Shown piece after piece: positions 14,769 to 46,714 of a DNA stretch of 64,000 bases. The position numbers and the translations under genes were made by a program. This stretch comes from Treponema sp. (lineage in GTDB: Bacteria > Spirochaetota > Spirochaetia > Treponematales > Treponemataceae): contig JAAVAP010000013.1 in NCBI GenBank assembly GCA_014804005.1, positions 200,302-264,301 of the forward strand, given 5' to 3'. Within the stretch, counting starts at the first letter, position 1. Each line of letters starts with the position of its first letter. The notes under the pieces are model-generated. The model worked only from the letters and a program-made list of their open reading frames with translations, made no database searches and was not told the DNA's origin.

Positions 14769-14846
14769 ATGATGCATATATCCCCACAACTTGAATACAA
14801 AGAACTGCTCGCTAGAAAAAGTATGGGGGGGGGTGTAACAGCCTAG
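14769..14846 (+). CDS. Cassette A leader peptide with in-frame G9 tract
   Basis: The predicted leaderless 25-codon ORF starts MMHISPQLEYKELLARKS and ends MGGGVTA-stop. Nine G residues at 14825-14833 encode the glycines. Inserting one G would move the frame into an open reading frame that continues without a stop through the hairpin and repeats to 15346 (about 192 codons), overlapping the DUF6261-like start. Removing one G gives an immediate TAA. The peptide ending GGG-V-T is shared with the cassette B leader (GGG-I-T). No homologue is known to me. Confidence 0.6.
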   Translation: MMHISPQLEYKELLARKSMGGGVTA

Positions 14847-14875
14847 GTTTTTTCGGAAAAGCACAGTTCGCATAT

Positions 14876-14925
14876 AAAAAGACGCGCAATGAGGACAAAA
14901 TGTCTAATTGCGCGTCTTTTTTATT
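14876..14925 (+). terminator. Intrinsic terminator / attenuator in the cassette A leader
   Basis: A 15-bp perfect stem (14876-14890 pairing with 14907-14921), with an inner GACA/TGTC hairpin, runs straight into a T-rich tail. It lies 29 bases after the stop of the leader peptide and 370 bases before the DUF6261-like gene, so it would end most transcripts unless read through. Confidence 0.8.
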
Positions 14926-14934
14926 TCGCTTTGC

Positions 14935-15184
14935 TTCTCACATTGTGTCGCTTGGCGCATTTTCAAGCAAAATTTATTCTCACATTACTCCACTTGGCGT
15001 GTTTTCAGGCAAAATTTGTTCTCATGTAGTCTCGTTTGGGTTGTTTTCGACCAAATTCATTCTCATATTGTTTCGCATGGCGTGTTTCTGGGCAGAATTT
15101 GTGCTCGCATGCTCCGCATGGAGCGTTTCCATGCAAAATTTCTTCTCACATTGCGTCGCGGGGCGCGTTTTGTCGCAGGGCTTC
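14935..15184 (+). repeat. Tandem array of six 41-42 bp units, cassette A
   Basis: Units begin with TTCTCA or a variant at 14935, 14977, 15019, 15060, 15102 and 15143. They share TTCTCACATT, TGGCG and CAAAATTT. Within several units short arms pair: CTTG/CAAG in unit 1, TTTGG/CCAAA in unit 3, ATGGA/TCCAT in unit 5. The pairing is kept although the bases differ. Confidence 0.75.
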
Positions 15185-15260
15185 GCCCTGCTTCCGAGTT
15201 TTCGTTTGCTCGCGAGGCTCGCATTTTTGTCGCTTCGCGGCAAAAAGCACGAAAACTCGC
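15176..15260 (+). repeat. CGAGTTT multi-hairpin element, copy 1
   Basis: The hairpin CAGGGC-TTC-GCCCTG (15176-15190) is followed by outer arms CGAGTTTTCG/CGAAAACTCG (15195-15259). These enclose a CTCGCGAG palindrome and TTTTTGTCGC-TTC-GCGGCAAAAA. The whole resembles a branched, REP-like structure. The same arrangement recurs at 45339-45437 and 46482-46547, with smaller relatives at 31920 and 54188. Confidence 0.75.
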
Positions 15261-15296
15261 TCAAATTTAGCAAAAAACATAAATCAGGAGGGTTTT

Positions 15297-16013
15297 ATGG
15301 CAAAAGTTGCAAAGGTAAACGCAAGGGTTTTCGTGACGGAGCTTGACGCGCTCTCGGACGCGCTGGAGCGCGAGTATGCGGCGGCTTGCGCGGGCGGCGA
15401 GACGGCGGTGGCGAAGGACGCTGTGCTTAAGGCGCAGTTCGGGCAGCTTAAGGACTTGAGCGCGCGGAACACCACGGCAATCAAGCAGTCGCCTGTGACG
15501 TCCACTCTGGACGAGGCGGATTCGGCGCGGGATTCCGTGACGCGCGACCTCTTCACGCTCGCTGGCGGCTACACGGCAAGCCCTTTCGCGGAGGTAAAGG
15601 CCGCGGCTCAGGTTGTGTGCGCGGTGCTCGAAAAATACGGGCGCGGCATGACTGGCAAGGGCTACGCGGAGCAGACCGCGCTCACCGAGTCGCTTCTGGA
15701 GGATTTGGCGGCATCTTCGGTTTCGGAGGGCGTGAAGGCTCTTTCGGGAGTGGCGGAACTCTTGGCACAGTTGCGCTCGGCGCAGGACGGATTCGCCTCC
15801 GCGCACGACGGCTACATCAAGGCGAAGCTCGGAAAGGGCGAGTCGGCAACGTCGCTCAAAAAGCCGATTGTCTCGCTGATTAACGACGGCATCGTGCCGT
15901 ACCTGAACATCGTGGCGGCGATGGACGGCTACGCGGACTTCGCGGACGCGGTGGCGGAGAACATCAAGAAGATGAACAACACCGTGGCGCGCCGCCTGGC
16001 GACGGAAAAGTGA
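15297..16013 (+). CDS. DUF6261-like protein, cassette A
   Basis: The 238-residue, Ala-rich, entirely helical product has no signal peptide. It aligns along its whole length with the cassette B protein: LSARNTTAIK, LDEADSARDSV, TESLLEDL, LRSAQDGF, KGESATSLKK and IVPYLNIV have direct counterparts. The third copy (cassette C) has the sequence pattern I associate with DUF6261, a family of unknown function frequent in Bacteroidetes. The start at 15297 has AGGAGGG upstream. Base composition is clearly GC-richer than the gene that follows. The function is unknown; four-helix-bundle-like pairing of long helices is likely. Confidence 0.75.
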   Translation: MAKVAKVNARVFVTELDALSDALEREYAAACAGGETAVAKDAVLKAQFGQLKDLSARNTTAIKQSPVTSTLDEADSARDSVTRDLFTLAGGYTASPFAEVKAAAQVVCAVLEKYGRGMTGKGYAEQTALTESLLEDLAASSVSEGVKALSGVAELLAQLRSAQDGFASAHDGYIKAKLGKGESATSLKKPIVSLINDGIVPYLNIVAAMDGYADFADAVAENIKKMNNTVARRLATEK

Positions 16014-16056: not shown

Positions 16057-16887
16057 ATGAAGAGAAAACGGATTGAAGTTGTGTTTATGGCGGCGCTTTT
16101 CGCGGCGGCGTTGGCGTTTGTGGCATGCAAGAATATTGAAGATGGCGGCGAAATCCAGCAGCCTCCTGCGCCCGAGCAGGGTGCGAGTGGCGGAAGCCAA
16201 GGCGAAGGACAGCCCAGCGGCGGCGATAACACAGGCAATGAAGGCGAGAATCCCGATGAAGGCGGAGATGAAGGTGATGAACAAAATCCTCCGCAACCAT
16301 CTGGTAAAACTGTTGTTGAGCTGATGAAAGAAATCATCGGAGAAAACAAGTACGACGCGATTTCGGAGGAAGTGGCGGCCGGAAACATGACATTGACGGA
16401 AGAAAAGATAAAAGCGGTGGGCGACATTTTCCCCGCCCTTGAAAAGGACGCGGAAAGCGGCAAGGAAGCAAAAGACGTGGAGAACGCTGAAATAATTCGG
16501 CAAAACAAGGAAGCATTCGTCGCGCAGGCGCGGGGCGAAATGGAAGACGTGTTCAAGACTATATATCCTGAAGGGTATGAAGAGTATCCTTTTCTCTTTG
16601 ACGAAGATGACTTTGAAAGGAAATATGTCGTCACATACAAAAAGAATTTTACATTCGAAGGCGAGTTCAACCTCGACGAAATTGACATAATAAAAGCGGA
16701 TGGCGCGCAAGGAGATTTCTCAAATGCAACATTAACGGGTAATAATATAACTATTGATAATCTTAATAGTATAAGAGGTGAGTATTTACCAACAATATCA
16801 TCTACAAATATATCATCAAGTTCATCTCCAAAAGCTATCTATAATTTATATAAAGCATATTCAAGTAATTTAAATAAACTTACTTGA
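16057..16887 (+). pseudogene. Lipoprotein gene of cassette A, N-terminal part; truncated by a stop
   Basis: The product starts MKRKRIEVVFMAALFAAALA with the lipobox FVAC, then a Pro/Gly/Glu-rich linker (EIQQPPAPEQGASGG...). AAGGAG lies upstream of the ATG at 16057. The first ~630 bases have the composition of the neighbours; from about 16690 the sequence becomes strongly AT-rich with AAA, TTA, ATA and AAT codons. The frame ends at TGA 16885-16887, but similar AT-rich coding sequence continues in another frame to 17797, so this is probably a broken surface lipoprotein. It lies 43 bases after the DUF6261-like stop. The translated 276 residues could still be made. Confidence 0.65.
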
Positions 16888-16912
16888 AAGGGTGATTTAT
16901 ATAAGAAAACAA

Positions 16913-17797
16913 TAGTATGGTAAAGAAATAAGTGGTAATAACAGTGATTACACTTTATTCACAGATGATAATAAAGCTAAATTATCAACAAATACTTCAA
17001 TCACATCACTTTCCGCTGATGCATTGGCTCAAATGACAAATCAATTAACTATTTATGATATTCGTAATATGATAATATCTGGTAATGCAAAAACAAATAC
17101 AGTAAATTGGCAACTTACAAATATAATATTTGAAGGTGATATGAGTAATCTTAAAAATGATTTTACAAATCCAGATAATGAGTCAGCTTTACGTTTGTAT
17201 GGTATTGTATATTTTAAGAATAAACCTTATAATAATAGCAGACAAGATGGACAAAGTGTTGTAGGAATGTTAAAATTAGATAAATTAGAAGGGGTATCTA
17301 GTAACAATTTTAAAGTTGGTTTTGGTTCTACTTCTTATAGTGTTTTGGATGTTAGTGGGATTGACGCAAGTGTTTTAAGTAACTATAATCCAACTAATAA
17401 AGAAATAATTTCAAGAGGAGAAAGCACTCATGCGATTTATTTCAGTAATCTTAAAAATAAGACAGAAGATATCAATAAACTTTGTTATAAGTTTGTATCT
17501 AAAAGTTCACCAGGCATCGTAAATGTTTACTTAGGAGATAATAGAGATAAGGGAAATCATTATGATCGTTATCCTGACGATACAGCAGCTTCAAGAATTC
17601 CTAGAACATTAAAAGAATTTGAATATTTTGGAAATTATGACAAATTTGAAAAGTCTGCATACTCATCTTATTCATCTACCGATTTGGAAGAGTTACCACA
17701 AAAAGAGAAAAAACAGCTTGAAGGTGATAAGGACACAAAACAGATTGCTCAAAACAACAGAAAGTGCTTTTCCTGCGTAGCGAAAAGTTTTGTTTAG
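16913..17797 (+). pseudogene. AT-rich remainder of the cassette A surface protein, out of frame
   Basis: The frame runs from just after TAG 16910-16912 (YGKEISGNNSDYTLFTDD...) to 17797 with no good start or ribosome-binding site. It reads as the continuation of the upstream lipoprotein: polar, Asn/Ser/Lys-rich, with beta-type segments such as WQLTNIIFEGDMSNLKNDF. At least two lesions separate the parts (a frameshift near 16882 and a nonsense codon). The very low GC compared with flanking DNA suggests the C-terminal part came from an AT-rich donor. The last ~20 codons return to host-like composition. Confidence 0.6.
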
Positions 17798-23699: not shown

Positions 23700-23735
23700 A
23701 TTATTTTTCAGGCGAATTGATTTCGAAAATTTTCT

Positions 23736-23983
23736 CCAACGCCAAGGGAAGCAATTTCAAAACTGAAAAAGTCGTCCGAATGCGAAAGAAGGGCATTACA
23801 AAACTGAAATTTGCCGCCCTGACGCGAAAGAAAGGCGTTTCAAAACCGAAATCGCTTCCCCAACGCCAAGGGAAGCCGTTGCAAAACTGAAAAAGTCGTC
23901 CGAATGCAAAAGGAAGGCGTTACAAAACTGGAATTTGCCGCCCTGACGCGAAAGAAAGGCGTTTCAAAACTGAATTTGCTGTC
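23736..23983 (+). repeat. Array of 41-42 bp hairpin repeats between the LCP gene and rsfS
   Basis: Units begin AAAACTG or AAAACCG at 23759, 23800, 23842, 23883, 23924 and 23966. Every three units form a 124-base higher-order repeat (23736 and 23860). Each unit can form a hairpin around AAAGAAAG or AAGGGAA, with arms that change together: AATGC/GCATT, CAACG/CGTTG, GACGC/GCGTT. The array lies in a convergent intergenic region and runs into the last codons of rsfS. Confidence 0.8.
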
Positions 23984-39723: not shown

Positions 39724-40440
39724 TTATTCTGCGTCCGTCAAGTCATTGTTTTCCGCGCCTTTTTTCGAGCGGCGGTCGGCCGCGTTGTTGACGCGCTTTA
39801 TTTCCGTTTCGACTTGTGACGCGAACTTCGCGTAAGGCTCGGCGAGTCTCACCGCGCCCAAATACGGCACAAGCCTTTCGTTTACGAACGCTACAAGCGT
39901 TTTCTTTATCTCGGTGGCGTTTTCGCCTTTTTCCGATTTCGCGACGGTGTACGCGTCGTTTGCGGCGTTGAATTCGTCCTGCGCGTGGCGAAGCCGCTCC
40001 ACAAGGGTTTCCACGCCTTCAAGGATTTTCATTTCAGATTTGAACGCGCCCAAGTCTTCCAAGAGGCTTTCGATGAGCGAAGATTCGGATGCGTAGCTTT
40101 CGTTTACGATTTTCTTTCCGTATTTCGAGAACGCCGCATCGAGCCGCTTCGCTGCTTCTTTTTTTTCGGGAACGGGAATTACGGCGTAGCCTTGAATCAG
40201 CGTTCCCAAATTGCGCACCGCCTCGTCGCGCGCGCCGTCGCACTCATCCAAACGTGAATTCGCCACGTCCTTTTTGATTGCGGTGGTGAGACGCGCGCTC
40301 AAGGACTCAAGTTCCTTGAACGCGCCCGAAAGGAACGAGTCGTTTTCAAGACCCGCCGCTTTGTAAAGGCGCAGCAACGCGTCGCTTGCGGAATCCGCTT
40401 CCGTTGCGCGGATTCTCGCGTAAAGTTTTGTCATCGCCAT
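39724..40440 (-). CDS. DUF6261-like protein, cassette B
   Basis: The 238-residue helical protein has the same length as the cassette A copy and aligns with it over the full length (LSARLTTAIKKD, LDECDGARDEAVRNL, ESLLEDLG, LRHAQDEFNAAND, KGENATEIKKTL, LVPYLGAV). No signal or membrane segment. AGGAGG precedes the ATG. The surface LRR gene follows directly. Function unknown; the repeated pairing of this family with exported proteins suggests a role in their production, regulation or secretion. Confidence 0.75.
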   Translation of the reverse strand: MAMTKLYARIRATEADSASDALLRLYKAAGLENDSFLSGAFKELESLSARLTTAIKKDVANSRLDECDGARDEAVRNLGTLIQGYAVIPVPEKKEAAKRLDAAFSKYGKKIVNESYASESSLIESLLEDLGAFKSEMKILEGVETLVERLRHAQDEFNAANDAYTVAKSEKGENATEIKKTLVAFVNERLVPYLGAVRLAEPYAKFASQVETEIKRVNNAADRRSKKGAENNDLTDAE

Positions 40441-40452
40441 GTATTTTCCTCC

Positions 40453-40715
40453 TGAAATTGTTTTGAAATTGTGTGGAATTTTGTTTGGAATGCCGTTGCT
40501 GCGGCGCAACGCCGCGAAATCGAGTGTCGCCGCGTTTTTTTATGATGAAAAAGGCTGAAATTTTGTGTGCGCGCAGAATTTTCTGCCGTGAAACGGCTTG
40601 AAATTCCGTTTTCCGGCTTTTTCATTGAAAAAATTGAATGAAATTTTGTTTTGATGGATTTTTCGCGCGAAAATCGTCTGAAATTCCGCATGGACGCGCA
40701 TTGCGCTATGAAATT
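40453..40715 (-). repeat. Degenerate 40-43 bp repeats, cassette B
   Basis: On the minus strand AATTTCA recurs at 40-43 base spacing (plus-strand TGAAATT at 40556, 40599, 40639, 40679; extra copies at 40453, 40464 and 40709). Between them lie palindromes that differ from unit to unit: TTTTCGCGCGAAAA, GCAGAAAATTCTGC, CTTTTTCATTGAAAAA. Confidence 0.6.
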
Positions 40716-40724
40716 TGCGTGACG

Positions 40725-40772
40725 ATAAAAAAAACGCGCGCTCTGAGGCTTTGTGCTTTCAGAGTGCGCGTT
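40725..40772 (-). terminator. Intrinsic terminator / attenuator in the cassette B leader
   Basis: On the minus strand a 14-base stem (40772-40759 with 40746-40733, one mismatch) runs into eight T residues. It lies 32 bases after the leader-peptide stop, almost the same spacing as in cassette A, and 290 bases before the DUF6261-like ATG. Confidence 0.8.
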
Positions 40773-40804
40773 CGTTAATTGCGTTGTTTGGAAATTAAAA
40801 AATG

Positions 40805-40930
40805 CTAGTCGGTTATACCCCCCCCCGTAGTCGTTTTACAAGGGGTGCATGGCATCCATAAAGCCGCATGCCGCTCGTGGAAAGAAACGGAATGTTTCGA
40901 AGAAGTTCTTGCGGCGAATTCGGCGTTCAT
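40805..40930 (-). CDS. Cassette B leader peptide with in-frame G9 tract
   Basis: The 41-codon ORF starts MNAEFAARTSSK; AAGGA lies seven bases before the ATG. It ends TTTGGGITD-stop. The glycines come from nine G residues on the minus strand (plus-strand C at 40818-40826). One extra G opens a frame that continues without a stop through the terminator and repeats to 40431, ten bases inside the DUF6261-like gene. One fewer G gives an immediate TAA. Confidence 0.6.
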   Translation of the reverse strand: MNAEFAARTSSKHSVSFHERHAALWMPCTPCKTTTGGGITD

Positions 40931-44075: not shown

Positions 44076-45275
44076 CTACTTTTGTTTGTTGAACTCGCCG
44101 TCAGAACAGCGGACGGCATAATTGCCGCTACTGCTTTTTTCTATTGCCTCCCACTGCGCCTTTGTGCCGTCGTACTGGACGGTGAGATTGTCGCATTTAT
44201 AGAACGCATACCCGCCAATTTCCGTAACGCTCCGTGGAATCGTAACGCTCTTGAGCGACGTGCAGTCTTGGAACGCGTCATAGCCAATTTTTGTAACGCC
44301 TCTTGAAAGCGTGACGCTCTCAAGTGACTTGCAATTAATGAACGTGTATTGGCTGATATTCTTTACGCCTTTCGGAATCGTCACCGTCTTAAGACCAGAG
44401 CCTCTGAACGCGCTATCGCCGATTTTCGTTACGCTTTCGGGAATCGTTATGCTCGCAAGTGATTTGCAGCCCTTGAACGCACTATCGCCAATTTCTGTAA
44501 CGCTTTCAGGAATCGTCACGCTCGCAAGCGATGTGCAACCATTAAACACACTATTGCCAATTTCTGTAACGCTTTCAGGAATCGTCACGCTCGTAAGTGA
44601 CGTGCATCCTTCGAACTCACCTCTGCAGATTTTCGTAACGCCTTCGGAAATCGTAACGCTCTTGAGCGACGTGCAACCGCTGAACGCGTAATTACCGATT
44701 GTCTTTACGCTGCCCGGAATCGTCACGCTCTCAAGCGATGTGCAGTCTTCGAACATACTGTCGCCGATTGTCTCCACACCCTCGGAGAGCGTAACGCTCT
44801 TGAGCGATGTGCAGTCCCTGAACGCGTAATTGCCTATTTTCTTTACGTTTTCGGGAATCGTCACGCTCGTAAGCGACTTGCAGCCGCGGAAGGTGTTATT
44901 ACCGATTGTCTTTACGCTGACAGGAATCGTTATGCTCTCAAGCGATGTGCAGTCTTTGAACATACTATCGCCGATTGTCTCCACGCCCCCGGCAAGCGTA
45001 ACGCTCTTGAGCGACGTGCAACCGCTGAACGCGCTTTTGCCGATTAACTTTACGCTGCCCGGAATCACGACGCTTTCAAGGTACATACACTGACTGAATG
45101 CCCCCTCTCCTATTTCCGTCACTCCCTCGGAAATCACGAGGTTGTCGGGAATGTCGTCCTTGTCGCAGCCCGTTATCTTCGTGCCTTCCATCTTGAGATA
45201 CGATGGGAAGTCCGCCGCGAAAGCCGCCGTCGCAAGTACCATTGCCGCGAGCGCGGCATACATTTTGTTTTTCAT
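44076..45275 (-). CDS. Secreted BspA-type leucine-rich-repeat protein, cassette C
   Basis: The 399-residue product has the signal peptide MKNKMYAALAAMVLATAAFA and then about 14 nearly identical 23-residue BspA/TpLRR repeats (CTSLKSVTIPESVTEIGDSA type). A short C-terminal domain (VQYDGTKAQWEAIEKSSSGN) is common at the end of such proteins. There is no lipobox, unlike the cassette B protein. AAGGA lies upstream of the ATG at 45275. The near-identity of repeats at DNA level would favour unit gain and loss. It lies downstream of the DUF6261-like gene, separated by a multi-hairpin element. Confidence 0.9.
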   Translation of the reverse strand: MKNKMYAALAAMVLATAAFAADFPSYLKMEGTKITGCDKDDIPDNLVISEGVTEIGEGAFSQCMYLESVVIPGSVKLIGKSAFSGCTSLKSVTLAGGVETIGDSMFKDCTSLESITIPVSVKTIGNNTFRGCKSLTSVTIPENVKKIGNYAFRDCTSLKSVTLSEGVETIGDSMFEDCTSLESVTIPGSVKTIGNYAFSGCTSLKSVTISEGVTKICRGEFEGCTSLTSVTIPESVTEIGNSVFNGCTSLASVTIPESVTEIGDSAFKGCKSLASITIPESVTKIGDSAFRGSGLKTVTIPKGVKNISQYTFINCKSLESVTLSRGVTKIGYDAFQDCTSLKSVTIPRSVTEIGGYAFYKCDNLTVQYDGTKAQWEAIEKSSSGNYAVRCSDGEFNKQK

Positions 45276-45338: not shown

Positions 45339-45437
45339 CGCAGGGCAAAGCCCTGCTTACGAGTTTTGTTTGCTACGCTCACTACGTTCGCTACCGCATT
45401 TTTGTCCGCTTTGCGGACAAAAAGCACAAAAACTCGC
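45339..45437 (+). repeat. CGAGTTT multi-hairpin element, copy 2
   Basis: GCAGGGC-AAA-GCCCTGC (45340-45356) is followed by outer arms CGAGTTTTGT/ACAAAAACTCG (45360-45436). These enclose TTTTTGTCCGC-TTT-GCGGACAAAAA. It has the same order of parts as the element at 15176. It lies between the DUF6261-like gene and the LRR gene of cassette C. Confidence 0.75.
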
Positions 45438-45439
45438 GC

Positions 45440-46171
45440 TTACTCCGCAACGTTTGCGGAAGTCGTGCCCTTTTTCTTTGACCCACCCAAGACTTCCTGC
45501 TTGAAATGCTCGATTTCCGTGTTGGCATAGTCAATAAATGCCGCGTATTCCGCCTCGCCCTCAAGCAAGGCGTGTGCGTTCACGTGAAGCACGAGCATTT
45601 TGTACGACTCGTCGCTTGCCGCTCGCGCCGCCTTGAGCGCGCCCGCCGTCTTTGCCGAGCGTTCGTCCGTGCGCTGTCCCGTGAGCGCGCGCACATCCTC
45701 ATTCGCCGACTTGAGCTTTTCCACAAACGCGCCGAGCGAAAGTGCCTTCACTTGCTCCGCGAATTTGCCTTCCAAGTCCTGAATGAAATTGACAAGCAAA
45801 CCCGTTTCCTTGTCCAGCTGCGCCTGCACGTCGATTTTGTAGTCCTTGATGTGCTGATTCAGCACTTTCGCGGCATCCGCCATGCTTTCCATGGGAAAAT
45901 TCACGTAGCCCGCGACGGCTTTCTTGTAGCCGGCATAAAGCTGGTCGCGCAAGCGATCCGCCGCCGCGATTTTGTCCGTGGTCAGGCTTTTTGCCGAGGT
46001 CTGCAAGTTCTCGTCCTCCGCCCGTACTGCGTCCCGCAGTGCCTTCACCTGCGCCGCGCATTTTTCAGCGACGGCCGCGTCCTTCTCCGCCCTGTCCGCC
46101 ATGTTGGACACGAACATGAAATGCGCCGCATTGTTCATGTTCCCCAAGAAAATCGACTGGATTTCCTTCAT
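45440..46171 (-). CDS. DUF6261 protein, cassette C
   Basis: The 243-residue helical protein has the full DUF6261 pattern known from Bacteroidetes: AAHFMFVSNMADRAEK, an ExENLQTSAKSL segment, RDQLYAGYKKAVAGY, LDKETGLLVNFIQDLEGKFA, RTDERSAKTAGALKAAR and ALLEGEAEYAAFIDYANTEI. It is more distant from the A and B copies than they are from each other. AGGAGG precedes the ATG. No export signal. Its 5' end is overlapped for 107 bases by the long leader ORF in another frame. Confidence 0.82.
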   Translation of the reverse strand: MKEIQSIFLGNMNNAAHFMFVSNMADRAEKDAAVAEKCAAQVKALRDAVRAEDENLQTSAKSLTTDKIAAADRLRDQLYAGYKKAVAGYVNFPMESMADAAKVLNQHIKDYKIDVQAQLDKETGLLVNFIQDLEGKFAEQVKALSLGAFVEKLKSANEDVRALTGQRTDERSAKTAGALKAARAASDESYKMLVLHVNAHALLEGEAEYAAFIDYANTEIEHFKQEVLGGSKKKGTTSANVAE

Positions 46172-46679
46172 ACAAACCTCCTAATGATTTCAGAAATGAC
46201 TTCAAGTTGCACTTGAAGTGTCCAAACGGTTTCGGAAGCGGCTTCAAGTGGCACTTGAAGCGTCCAAACGGTTTCGGAAATGACTTCAAGTTGCACTTGA
46301 TGTGTCCAAACAGTTTCAGAAGTGAGTTCAAGTGGCACTTGAAGTGTCCAAACGGTTTCGGAAGTGGCTTCAACTCGCAGTTGAAGTGTCCAAACGGTTT
46401 CAGAAGTGAGTTCAAGTCGCACTTGAAGTGTCCAAATAGTTTCAGAAGTGAGTTCAAGTTGCGGTTTGAGGCATGTTTGTGTCGCAGGACAAAGCCCTGC
46501 TTACCGAGTTTTGTACGCAAGCTCTTGGCTTGCTGCCAAAACTCGCCATGATTAGCATTTTGCGTGCCAAAGTCGTGATTTCTACATGCAGAAAGTGTCG
46601 CGCTGCGTAGAAATGCTATATCATTGTATAGGGGGGGGGTAGTCGTTATCGTGTTTTTAAGTTCCGCACATTTCCGCAT
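46065..46679 (-). CDS. Cassette C leader ORF, long (open) form with C9 tract and 14-residue repeats
   Basis: The 204-codon frame starts six bases after a TATAAT box (predicted leaderless) with MRKCAELKNTITTTPPLYND. Nine C residues (plus-strand G at 46631-46639) lie in codons 14-17. The frame passes through seven exact 42-base repeats, read as 14-residue units such as HLKPLPKPFGHFKC, and ends 107 bases inside the DUF6261 gene. One more or one fewer C would end the peptide within eight codons of the tract (TTPPPIQ-stop or TTPPYTMI-stop). Whether the product is functional or only its translation matters is unknown. Confidence 0.5.
   Translation of the reverse strand: MRKCAELKNTITTTPPLYNDIAFLRSATLSACRNHDFGTQNANHGEFWQQAKSLRTKLGKQGFVLRHKHASNRNLNSLLKLFGHFKCDLNSLLKPFGHFNCELKPLPKPFGHFKCHLNSLLKLFGHIKCNLKSFPKPFGRFKCHLKPLPKPFGHFKCNLKSFLKSLGGLYEGNPVDFLGEHEQCGAFHVRVQHGGQGGEGRGRR
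46201..46474 (-). repeat. Seven 42-bp palindromic tandem repeats, cassette C
   Basis: Units start with TTCAAG at 46201, 46243, 46285, 46327, 46369, 46411 and 46453, exactly 42 bases apart. Each has a palindrome such as CTTCAAGTG-G-CACTTGAAG plus a spacer TGTCCAAACGGTTTCGGAAG. Arms change together: ACTTCAAGT/ACTTGAAGT in unit 1, GCTTCAAGT/ACTTGAAGC in unit 2, CTTCAACT/AGTTGAAG in unit 5. The array ends 30 bases before the DUF6261 ATG. Confidence 0.9.
46482..46547 (+). repeat. CGAGTTT multi-hairpin element, copy 3
   Basis: GCAGGAC-AAA-GCCCTGC (46484-46500) is followed by CGAGTTTTG (46505-46513) and CAAAACTCG (46537-46545), enclosing GCAAGC-TCTTG-GCTTGC. It lies between the C9 tract and the 42-bp array of cassette C. 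Confidence 0.75.
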
Positions 46680-46685
46680 TGGAAA

Positions 46686-46714
46686 ATTATAGCACTTTGT
46701 TATTTTCTTGTCTT
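46686..46714 (-). promoter_or_regulatory. Promoter AAGACA-17-TATAAT of cassette C
   Basis: On the minus strand, AAGACA is at 46714-46709 and TATAAT at 46691-46686. The leader ORF ATG at 46679 follows after six bases. Confidence 0.65.

Follow-up and report, generated by a model that had tools for sequence, protein, structure and literature searches.

In attenuators of the trp type, translation of a leader ORF decides whether the downstream genes are transcribed. Other loci are switched by homopolymer slippage. In Neisseria porA and opc this varies the promoter, and in Treponema pallidum tprL, where transcription starts at the fourth base after a poly-G tract, output differs between 8 and 10 G (PMC7864442, in the parts of that article drawn on here). 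The closest known system is the sortase-pilus switch of Bifidobacterium breve, in which slippage in a G tract governs whether translation continues, and polarity in the OFF state silences the downstream genes (PMC9187656, likewise in part).

Here we describe cassette C, which lies on the minus strand of a 64,000-nt stretch (the window; 200302-264301 of contig C13) in the 2.53-Mb genome of an uncultured gut Treponema. A leader ORF containing nine C precedes a gene of the uncharacterised family DUF6261 and a gene for a BspA-type surface protein (Table 1). We think it likely that this leader is a phase switch, phase-variable and translated, and independent of the peptide it encodes; the length of the tract would probably decide whether ribosomes reach DUF6261 and the surface gene. 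As in the B. breve switch, tract slippage is proposed to decide translation, with loss of transcription by polarity. In the parts of that work considered, however, the tract lies inside a structural pilin gene, whereas cassette C has a separate leader; the cassette leaders further differ in that their peptide is not conserved, they occur at many loci and some carry a terminator. The T. pallidum loci are genus-level relatives and, in the sections of PMC7864442 used, have length-variable tracts of at least eight G near surface protein genes. The tprL tract, as described there, acts at the promoter, immediately ahead of the point where transcription begins, whereas that of C begins 47 nt downstream of the predicted -10, inside the leader ORF, and so is neither at this -10 nor just before the presumed start of transcription. 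Homopolymer slippage would be shared with porA and opc as portrayed in the same sections, and spacer tracts occur elsewhere in the window genome, but the tract of C is not one. As for trp-type attenuators, leader translation would again gate the genes, and cassettes A and B of the window have a terminator after the leader; C differs in that its signal would be tract length rather than codon stalling, and in having neither conserved codons nor a terminator. Titles and abstracts on phase variation, leaders, termination, translational coupling, Treponema tracts and 41/42-bp repeats, surveyed for the most part outside subscription journals, describe no such leader, and the terms termination, leader, untranslated, polar, attenuation and translational coupling are all absent from a 2025 phase-variation review.

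Layout of cassette C and the effect of tract length

In the direction of transcription the tract reads AACGACTA-C9-TATACAATGATATAGC. A predicted promoter, AAGACA-17-TATAAT (46714-46686), gives the leader ORF its own candidate start of transcription ahead of the operon, and 37 bases separate the ATG (46679) from C9. A sequence-only reading had called the long frame leaderless, which is fair for an ATG so close to the predicted -10, and had described it as open through the tract and the repeats, which we verified for 46065-46679; the stop lies 107 nt inside the DUF6261 gene. The array of seven 42-base repeats that it listed is present, with the copy number lowered to 6.5. The bulged hairpin behind the tract folds as claimed, and the reported lack of a T-tailed terminator there holds, an absence common to several C-type relatives. 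The DUF6261 protein belongs clearly to PF19775 (152.8 bits against a curated cut-off of 27), and the LRR_5 gene lies 164 nt downstream of it.

Table 1. Features of cassette C and the leaders of cassettes A and B, in window coordinates.
Feature	Position	Strand	Remarks
Predicted -35 AAGACA, leader promoter	46709..46714	-	promoter scan
Predicted -10 TATAAT, TG in front	46686..46691	-	ATG 6 nt on; promoter scan
Leader ORF, 204 codons, in frame at C9	46065..46679	-	ATG at 46679
C9 tract (plus strand: G9)	46631..46639	-	
TGA (46621-46623) and TAG (46616-46618), closing both other frames	46616..46623	-	
Bulged hairpin without T tail	about 46578..46614	-	folding
Interspersed palindromic element, GCAGG..CCTGC and GAGTTTT..AAAACTC	46484..46544	-	open frame reads through
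42-bp tandem repeats, 6.5 copies	46188..46459	-	TRF; consensus unit with 9-bp-arm palindrome
Shine-Dalgarno AGGAGG, DUF6261 gene	46177..46182	-	
DUF6261 gene, 243 aa	45440..46171	-	PF19775, E 8.8e-45
BspA-type LRR_5 protein, signal-peptide-like start	44076..45275	-	PF13306, E 1.6e-120
Cassette A leader	14769..15346	+	ATG 14769, G9 14825-14833
Cassette B leader	40431..40930	-	SD-led ATG 40930, G9 40818-40826

When only the tract length of cassette C was varied in silico, nine C gave 204 codons and 7, 8, 10 or 11 C gave 18-21 codons. Tracts of 8 or 10 close the frame at most five codons after the tract, reproducing the earlier prediction that these lengths end it. Cassette C thus switches frame on a change of length and has a homopolymer of at least eight bases, beyond chance, as is required of a slipped-strand contingency locus; by chance 64 kb should contain 0.32 runs of eight G, and the window has six overlapping matches. 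Across the leaders, 45 of 72 off frames (two per leader) closed no later than five codons past the tract, where 14.9 were expected; counted per post-tract family, the figures are 31 of 54 and 10.4.

In C and its relatives the ATG lies 6-7 nt past the -10, and eight C-type leaders, when compared, have few invariant columns, those of the -10 and the ATG included. The ATG is SD-led instead in B, L039, L061 and L063, and no promoter was recognisable in L066, L069 and L103. Of 23 tract-bearing loci, 13 have a promoter followed after 5-8 nt by an ATG whose frame reaches the tract without a stop; a comparable leader open as far as DUF6261 was present at 1 of 31 tractless loci, and at 2 of 31 in the reverse-strand control. 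The placing of promoter and ATG upstream of the tract, in C, its C-type relatives and these 13 loci, argues against a reading modelled on tprL, in which the tract is a promoter element that tunes promoter strength through its length, the long frame being a by-product. Such a reading has the length-dependent output of tprL as its precedent, and it gains from tracts between -35 and -10 in the same genome (L041, L046, L087) and from the TATA-like letters after many tracts; it leaves unexplained why two frames close so rapidly and the third stays open, and we consider it improbable.

Frames, states and peptides in the leader family

The leader set comprised 16 candidate cassettes of the window genome and tract-bearing loci among Treponema MAGs, with DUF6261 (PF19775) as the gene downstream; all 20 loci retrieved from the named genome collection with a DUF6261 protein of the window were from Treponema MAGs, one labelled water deer rectum. 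A leader was counted as open if one frame, followed from the tract, met no stop until 20 nt or less before the start of DUF6261. By this measure 19 of the 21 leaders with a defined DUF6261 start are open, where period-preserving shuffles expect 0.35, and the two misses fall 59 nt (L039) and 87 nt (L103) short. A further 60 DUF6261 regions were fetched and 59 used (L214 was too short); four had no gene start (L193, L200, L215, L235) and 14 were marked as repeats of loci already retrieved from the named genome collection. Among the new tract-bearing loci, from other genomes, 13 of 17 are open (all but L189, L212, L218 and L237), at tract-to-gene distances of 400-985 nt. Part of this openness belongs to the repeats and not to the tract, since the final 300 nt contain a frame without stops at 18 of 32 tractless loci as well, and for cassette C itself the shuffle probability, 0.036, is not extreme.

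The leaders are mostly separate from DUF6261 and out of frame with it (fused in L069 and L106). Their stop falls exactly at +4, on ATGA, in 8 of 21, and in 15 of 21 it lies between -16 and +13, positions that would suit translational coupling; C (+107), A (+50) and the two fused leaders lie outside this pattern. Because most DUF6261 genes here begin ATGA, stops at +4 are near the one third expected, and the significance of the overlap taken alone is weak. One locus without a tract, L150 (C27), has an ATG 7 nt past TATAAT and, by eye, is open through its repeats to the ATGA at DUF6261; it reads as a natural tract-free leader that would always be open. Stops interrupt the frame in two decayed versions, C1b/C26 (six Gs) and C21 (CCCTCCCCC). 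At L146 an insertion-sequence-like element with ends GGCTCTTGACTAG and CTAGTCAAGAGCC replaces the leader directly before one DUF6261 gene.

To score the state of each cassette, the first ATG after the -10 was taken as the start; the list was compiled by hand, with L117 counted by hand, and loci with a doubtful leader start were left out (L066, L069, L103, L091, L114/L194, L218, L231 and L237). In the window genome C is in frame and the other 12 scored cassettes are out of frame; other genomes contribute 2 in-frame cassettes of 20, giving 3 of 33 overall (P 0.001 if one third is expected). This fits the earlier suggestion that C may be the expressed locus, as the sole in-frame cassette of the 13 scored, a reading of its state that may hold subject to possibly wrong consensus homopolymer lengths. 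Such errors are central to another alternative, namely that C is a chance or decaying copy and that the assembled tract lengths are consensus or error values, making its in-frame state meaningless. The assembly does contain scattered N and copies differing by one tract G, homopolymers are error-prone, and C has lost the ATGA overlap. An excess of OFF states is, however, seen in the other assemblies too, openness is independent of tract length, and C shares its post-tract sequence and frame with L205 of another genome, which as assembled is out of frame where C, at nine, is in frame. We therefore give this alternative little credence.

The peptide encoded by the leaders is not conserved. Over nine pairs of related leaders, mismatches at codon positions 1, 2 and 3 number 317, 295 and 324, a flat distribution (P 0.48), and 12 of 25 indels are multiples of three; the DUF6261 genes behind the compared leaders have 144, 79 and 477. 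Between loci the leader repeats are unrelated, inverted or 41 bp long. Units of L056 and L115 match those of C, L066, L099 and L105 on the opposite strand only (29-32 of 42 positions, against 24 at the top 0.1% of shuffles). In several leaders with 41-bp arrays the unit is read in each of the three phases and the frame stays open nonetheless, and the 20 copies of the 41-bp unit in L239 contain no stop in any frame. The long frame of C had no match in a Pfam search. With the peptide not conserved, the leaders also lack the conserved regulatory codons of leader-peptide attenuators, and the 14-residue repeat peptide proposed earlier as the product of C finds no support. Together these data show that the leader frame is kept open without conservation of its peptide, so that translatability itself is what is retained. 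That the long frame encodes a functional 14-residue-repeat protein, phase-varied for its own sake, is very unlikely in view of the flat codon positions, the unrelated or inverted repeats, the 41-bp periods, the absent Pfam match and the arrays that also precede tractless DUF6261 genes, for all that 204 codons are open, the 42-bp repeats of C are in frame and many cassettes have 42-bp periods.

Proposed routes from leader translation to gene output

We infer the following working of a peptide-independent switch. The promoter would drive the leader, with the ATG at or beside the first transcribed base, and the C9 tract would gain or lose bases by slippage. In one phase of three, ribosomes would traverse the entire leader to the DUF6261 start; in the other two they would halt within five codons past the tract. 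Full leader translation would be required for output of DUF6261 and the LRR surface gene. In A and B, translating ribosomes would carry RNA polymerase past the terminator, and in C they would shield a C-rich stretch otherwise open to Rho; a ribosome hand-over at the gene start, suggested by the ATGA overlap in relatives, may add to this.

Cassettes A and B both have an intrinsic terminator between leader and gene, and C does not. In A (terminator hairpin about 14877-14920, DUF6261 from 15297) the G9 is out of frame with the open frame 14834-15346; B (terminator about 40731-40774, DUF6261 39724-40440) is likewise out of frame. Nearly all A-type leaders have a terminator-like hairpin behind the tract: it is strong in A, B, L039, L051, L061, L063, L064, L071 and L092, weak in L062 and doubtful in L080, with L091 outside the test. 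It is missing from C, L066, L103, L106 and L117, present in L099, L105 and L114, and weak or doubtful in L056, L069, L109 and L115. Having no terminator and a stop at +107, cassette C is served by neither the terminator nor ATGA coupling, and Rho action is our assumption there. Its leader contains a 367-nt stretch with C above G (C outnumbers G in 29 of the 35 leaders compared and in 0 of 35 genes) and rho is encoded in the window genome, so Rho-dependent loss of transcription in the OFF state of C is possible. The DUF6261 gene of C has a good Shine-Dalgarno sequence of its own, and might be translated without the leader.

If the leader works as proposed, an uncultured gut Treponema places a contingency switch outside the protein that it controls, and selection would keep the leader frame while the peptide drifts. 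We are doubtful of a fuller version, a peptide-blind, phase-variable attenuator: slippage in a leader ORF dedicated to this purpose would allow one out of many DUF6261/surface-protein cassettes to be transcribed and translated, each genome would have no more than one cassette ON, and DUF6261 itself would bind the 41/42-bp arrays of the leader.

The sequence-only reading had also set the C tract of this cassette against the G tract of B (AACGACTAC-G9-TATAACC) with matching flanks. The difference in base is real: B is one of a G-sense family, and C has its own relatives in a C-sense family. A common origin of the flanks was rejected: ACGACTAC occurs in both B and C, but it is short, a 9-mer with one mismatch is expected 7.5 times per window, and the C relatives L056, L066, L069 and L105 lack it, which makes the match a coincidence. 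Behind cassette A, the lipoprotein gene enters AT-rich sequence in which the frames are broken and which differs from the DNA around it (window 16700-17790).

Repeat arrays, downstream genes and G/C tracts in the genome

Tandem repeats of 40-42 bp lie within 500 nt upstream of 56 of 63 DUF6261 loci, including 34 of 40 tractless ones, and were found in 2 of 64 control stretches, both of which are cassettes A and C. The uncharacterised family is thereby tied to 41/42-bp arrays. Among the fetched DUF6261 genes, all 26 of the MNNAAHF type have a period of 42, and a period of 41 is found with 20 of the 23 genes of the other type; exceptions in the window genome are A, L064 and C27 with 42 and L039 with 41. 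The arrays are largely unrelated in sequence between loci and sometimes palindromic. DUF6261 of Prevotella nigrescens also has a 41-bp array (L247:3224-3372), with the palindrome TGCCGAA-n-TTCGGCA, and this together with the tractless loci argues that the array accompanies DUF6261 as such and that the tract leader has been added to it. Long palindrome arms were found in 7 of 22 repeat units at P<0.05 (B, L062, C, L066, L099, L105 and L114) and a looser symmetry test gave mixed results, so the case for palindromes as a general feature is weak. The predicted structure of DUF6261 is all-helical (pLDDT 82, pTM 0.53); it had no match in the PDB with E of 0.001 or less, so the fold gives no function, and a DNA- or RNA-binding role is a guess. 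A scan of viral_contigs for relatives found none, and the one paper found to mention DUF6261 concerns, judging by its title, another subject.

In 13 cassettes examined, the second gene was judged from printed sequences, except in B and C, which have Pfam matches. Its product is a secreted protein of LRR-like, Ig-like or lipoprotein type in A, B, C, L056, L063, L064, L066 and L069; the gene is of other kinds in L039, L051 and L061 and a fragment in L062; none was found in L092. Elsewhere in the window, a 41-bp tandem array lies at 23732-23979 between LytR-like and RsfS-like genes (named by eye), with neither tract nor adjoining DUF6261. The palindromic element GCAGGGC..GCCCTGC with GAGTTTT..AAAACTC recurs at 15168-15260, 45340-45440 and 46484-46544, between genes and also within leaders, where it leaves the leader frame unbroken.

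The window genome has 57 tracts of exactly nine G/C, 12 of eight and 7 of at least ten. The same search in 35 genomes of the genus gave 0-21 nine-tracts each, with more than ten only in G021. Many of the nine-tracts lie in lipoprotein gene starts, promoter spacers and DUF6261 leaders, and the list offers likely phase-variable surface genes in a genus whose cited poly-G loci act at promoters. A T follows 55 and precedes 40 of the 57, often as TAT-G9-TAT, a flanking explained neither by reading frame nor by promoter and not seen in relatives such as G045. One region was assembled twice (G000 C1:139-171 kb and C26:69-102 kb; L042/L078, L041/L079, L147/L148), and over 14,033 aligned columns the sole difference is G8 versus G9 in one tract, either a real variation in length or a sequencing error. 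At L041, L046, L087 and others, G/C tracts separate TTGACA from TATAAT-like hexamers, a layout that makes a promoter-spacer phase switch likely. A genome-wide rule of nine for OFF and ten for ON was rejected, as five G9 rows are ON among the SD-led starts scanned. G9 or G10 tracts occupy the first codons of the lipoprotein genes L047, L053, L081, L088, L090, L042 and L052; the G10 copies L088 and L090 are in frame, and their G9 paralogues L047, L053 and L081 out of frame.
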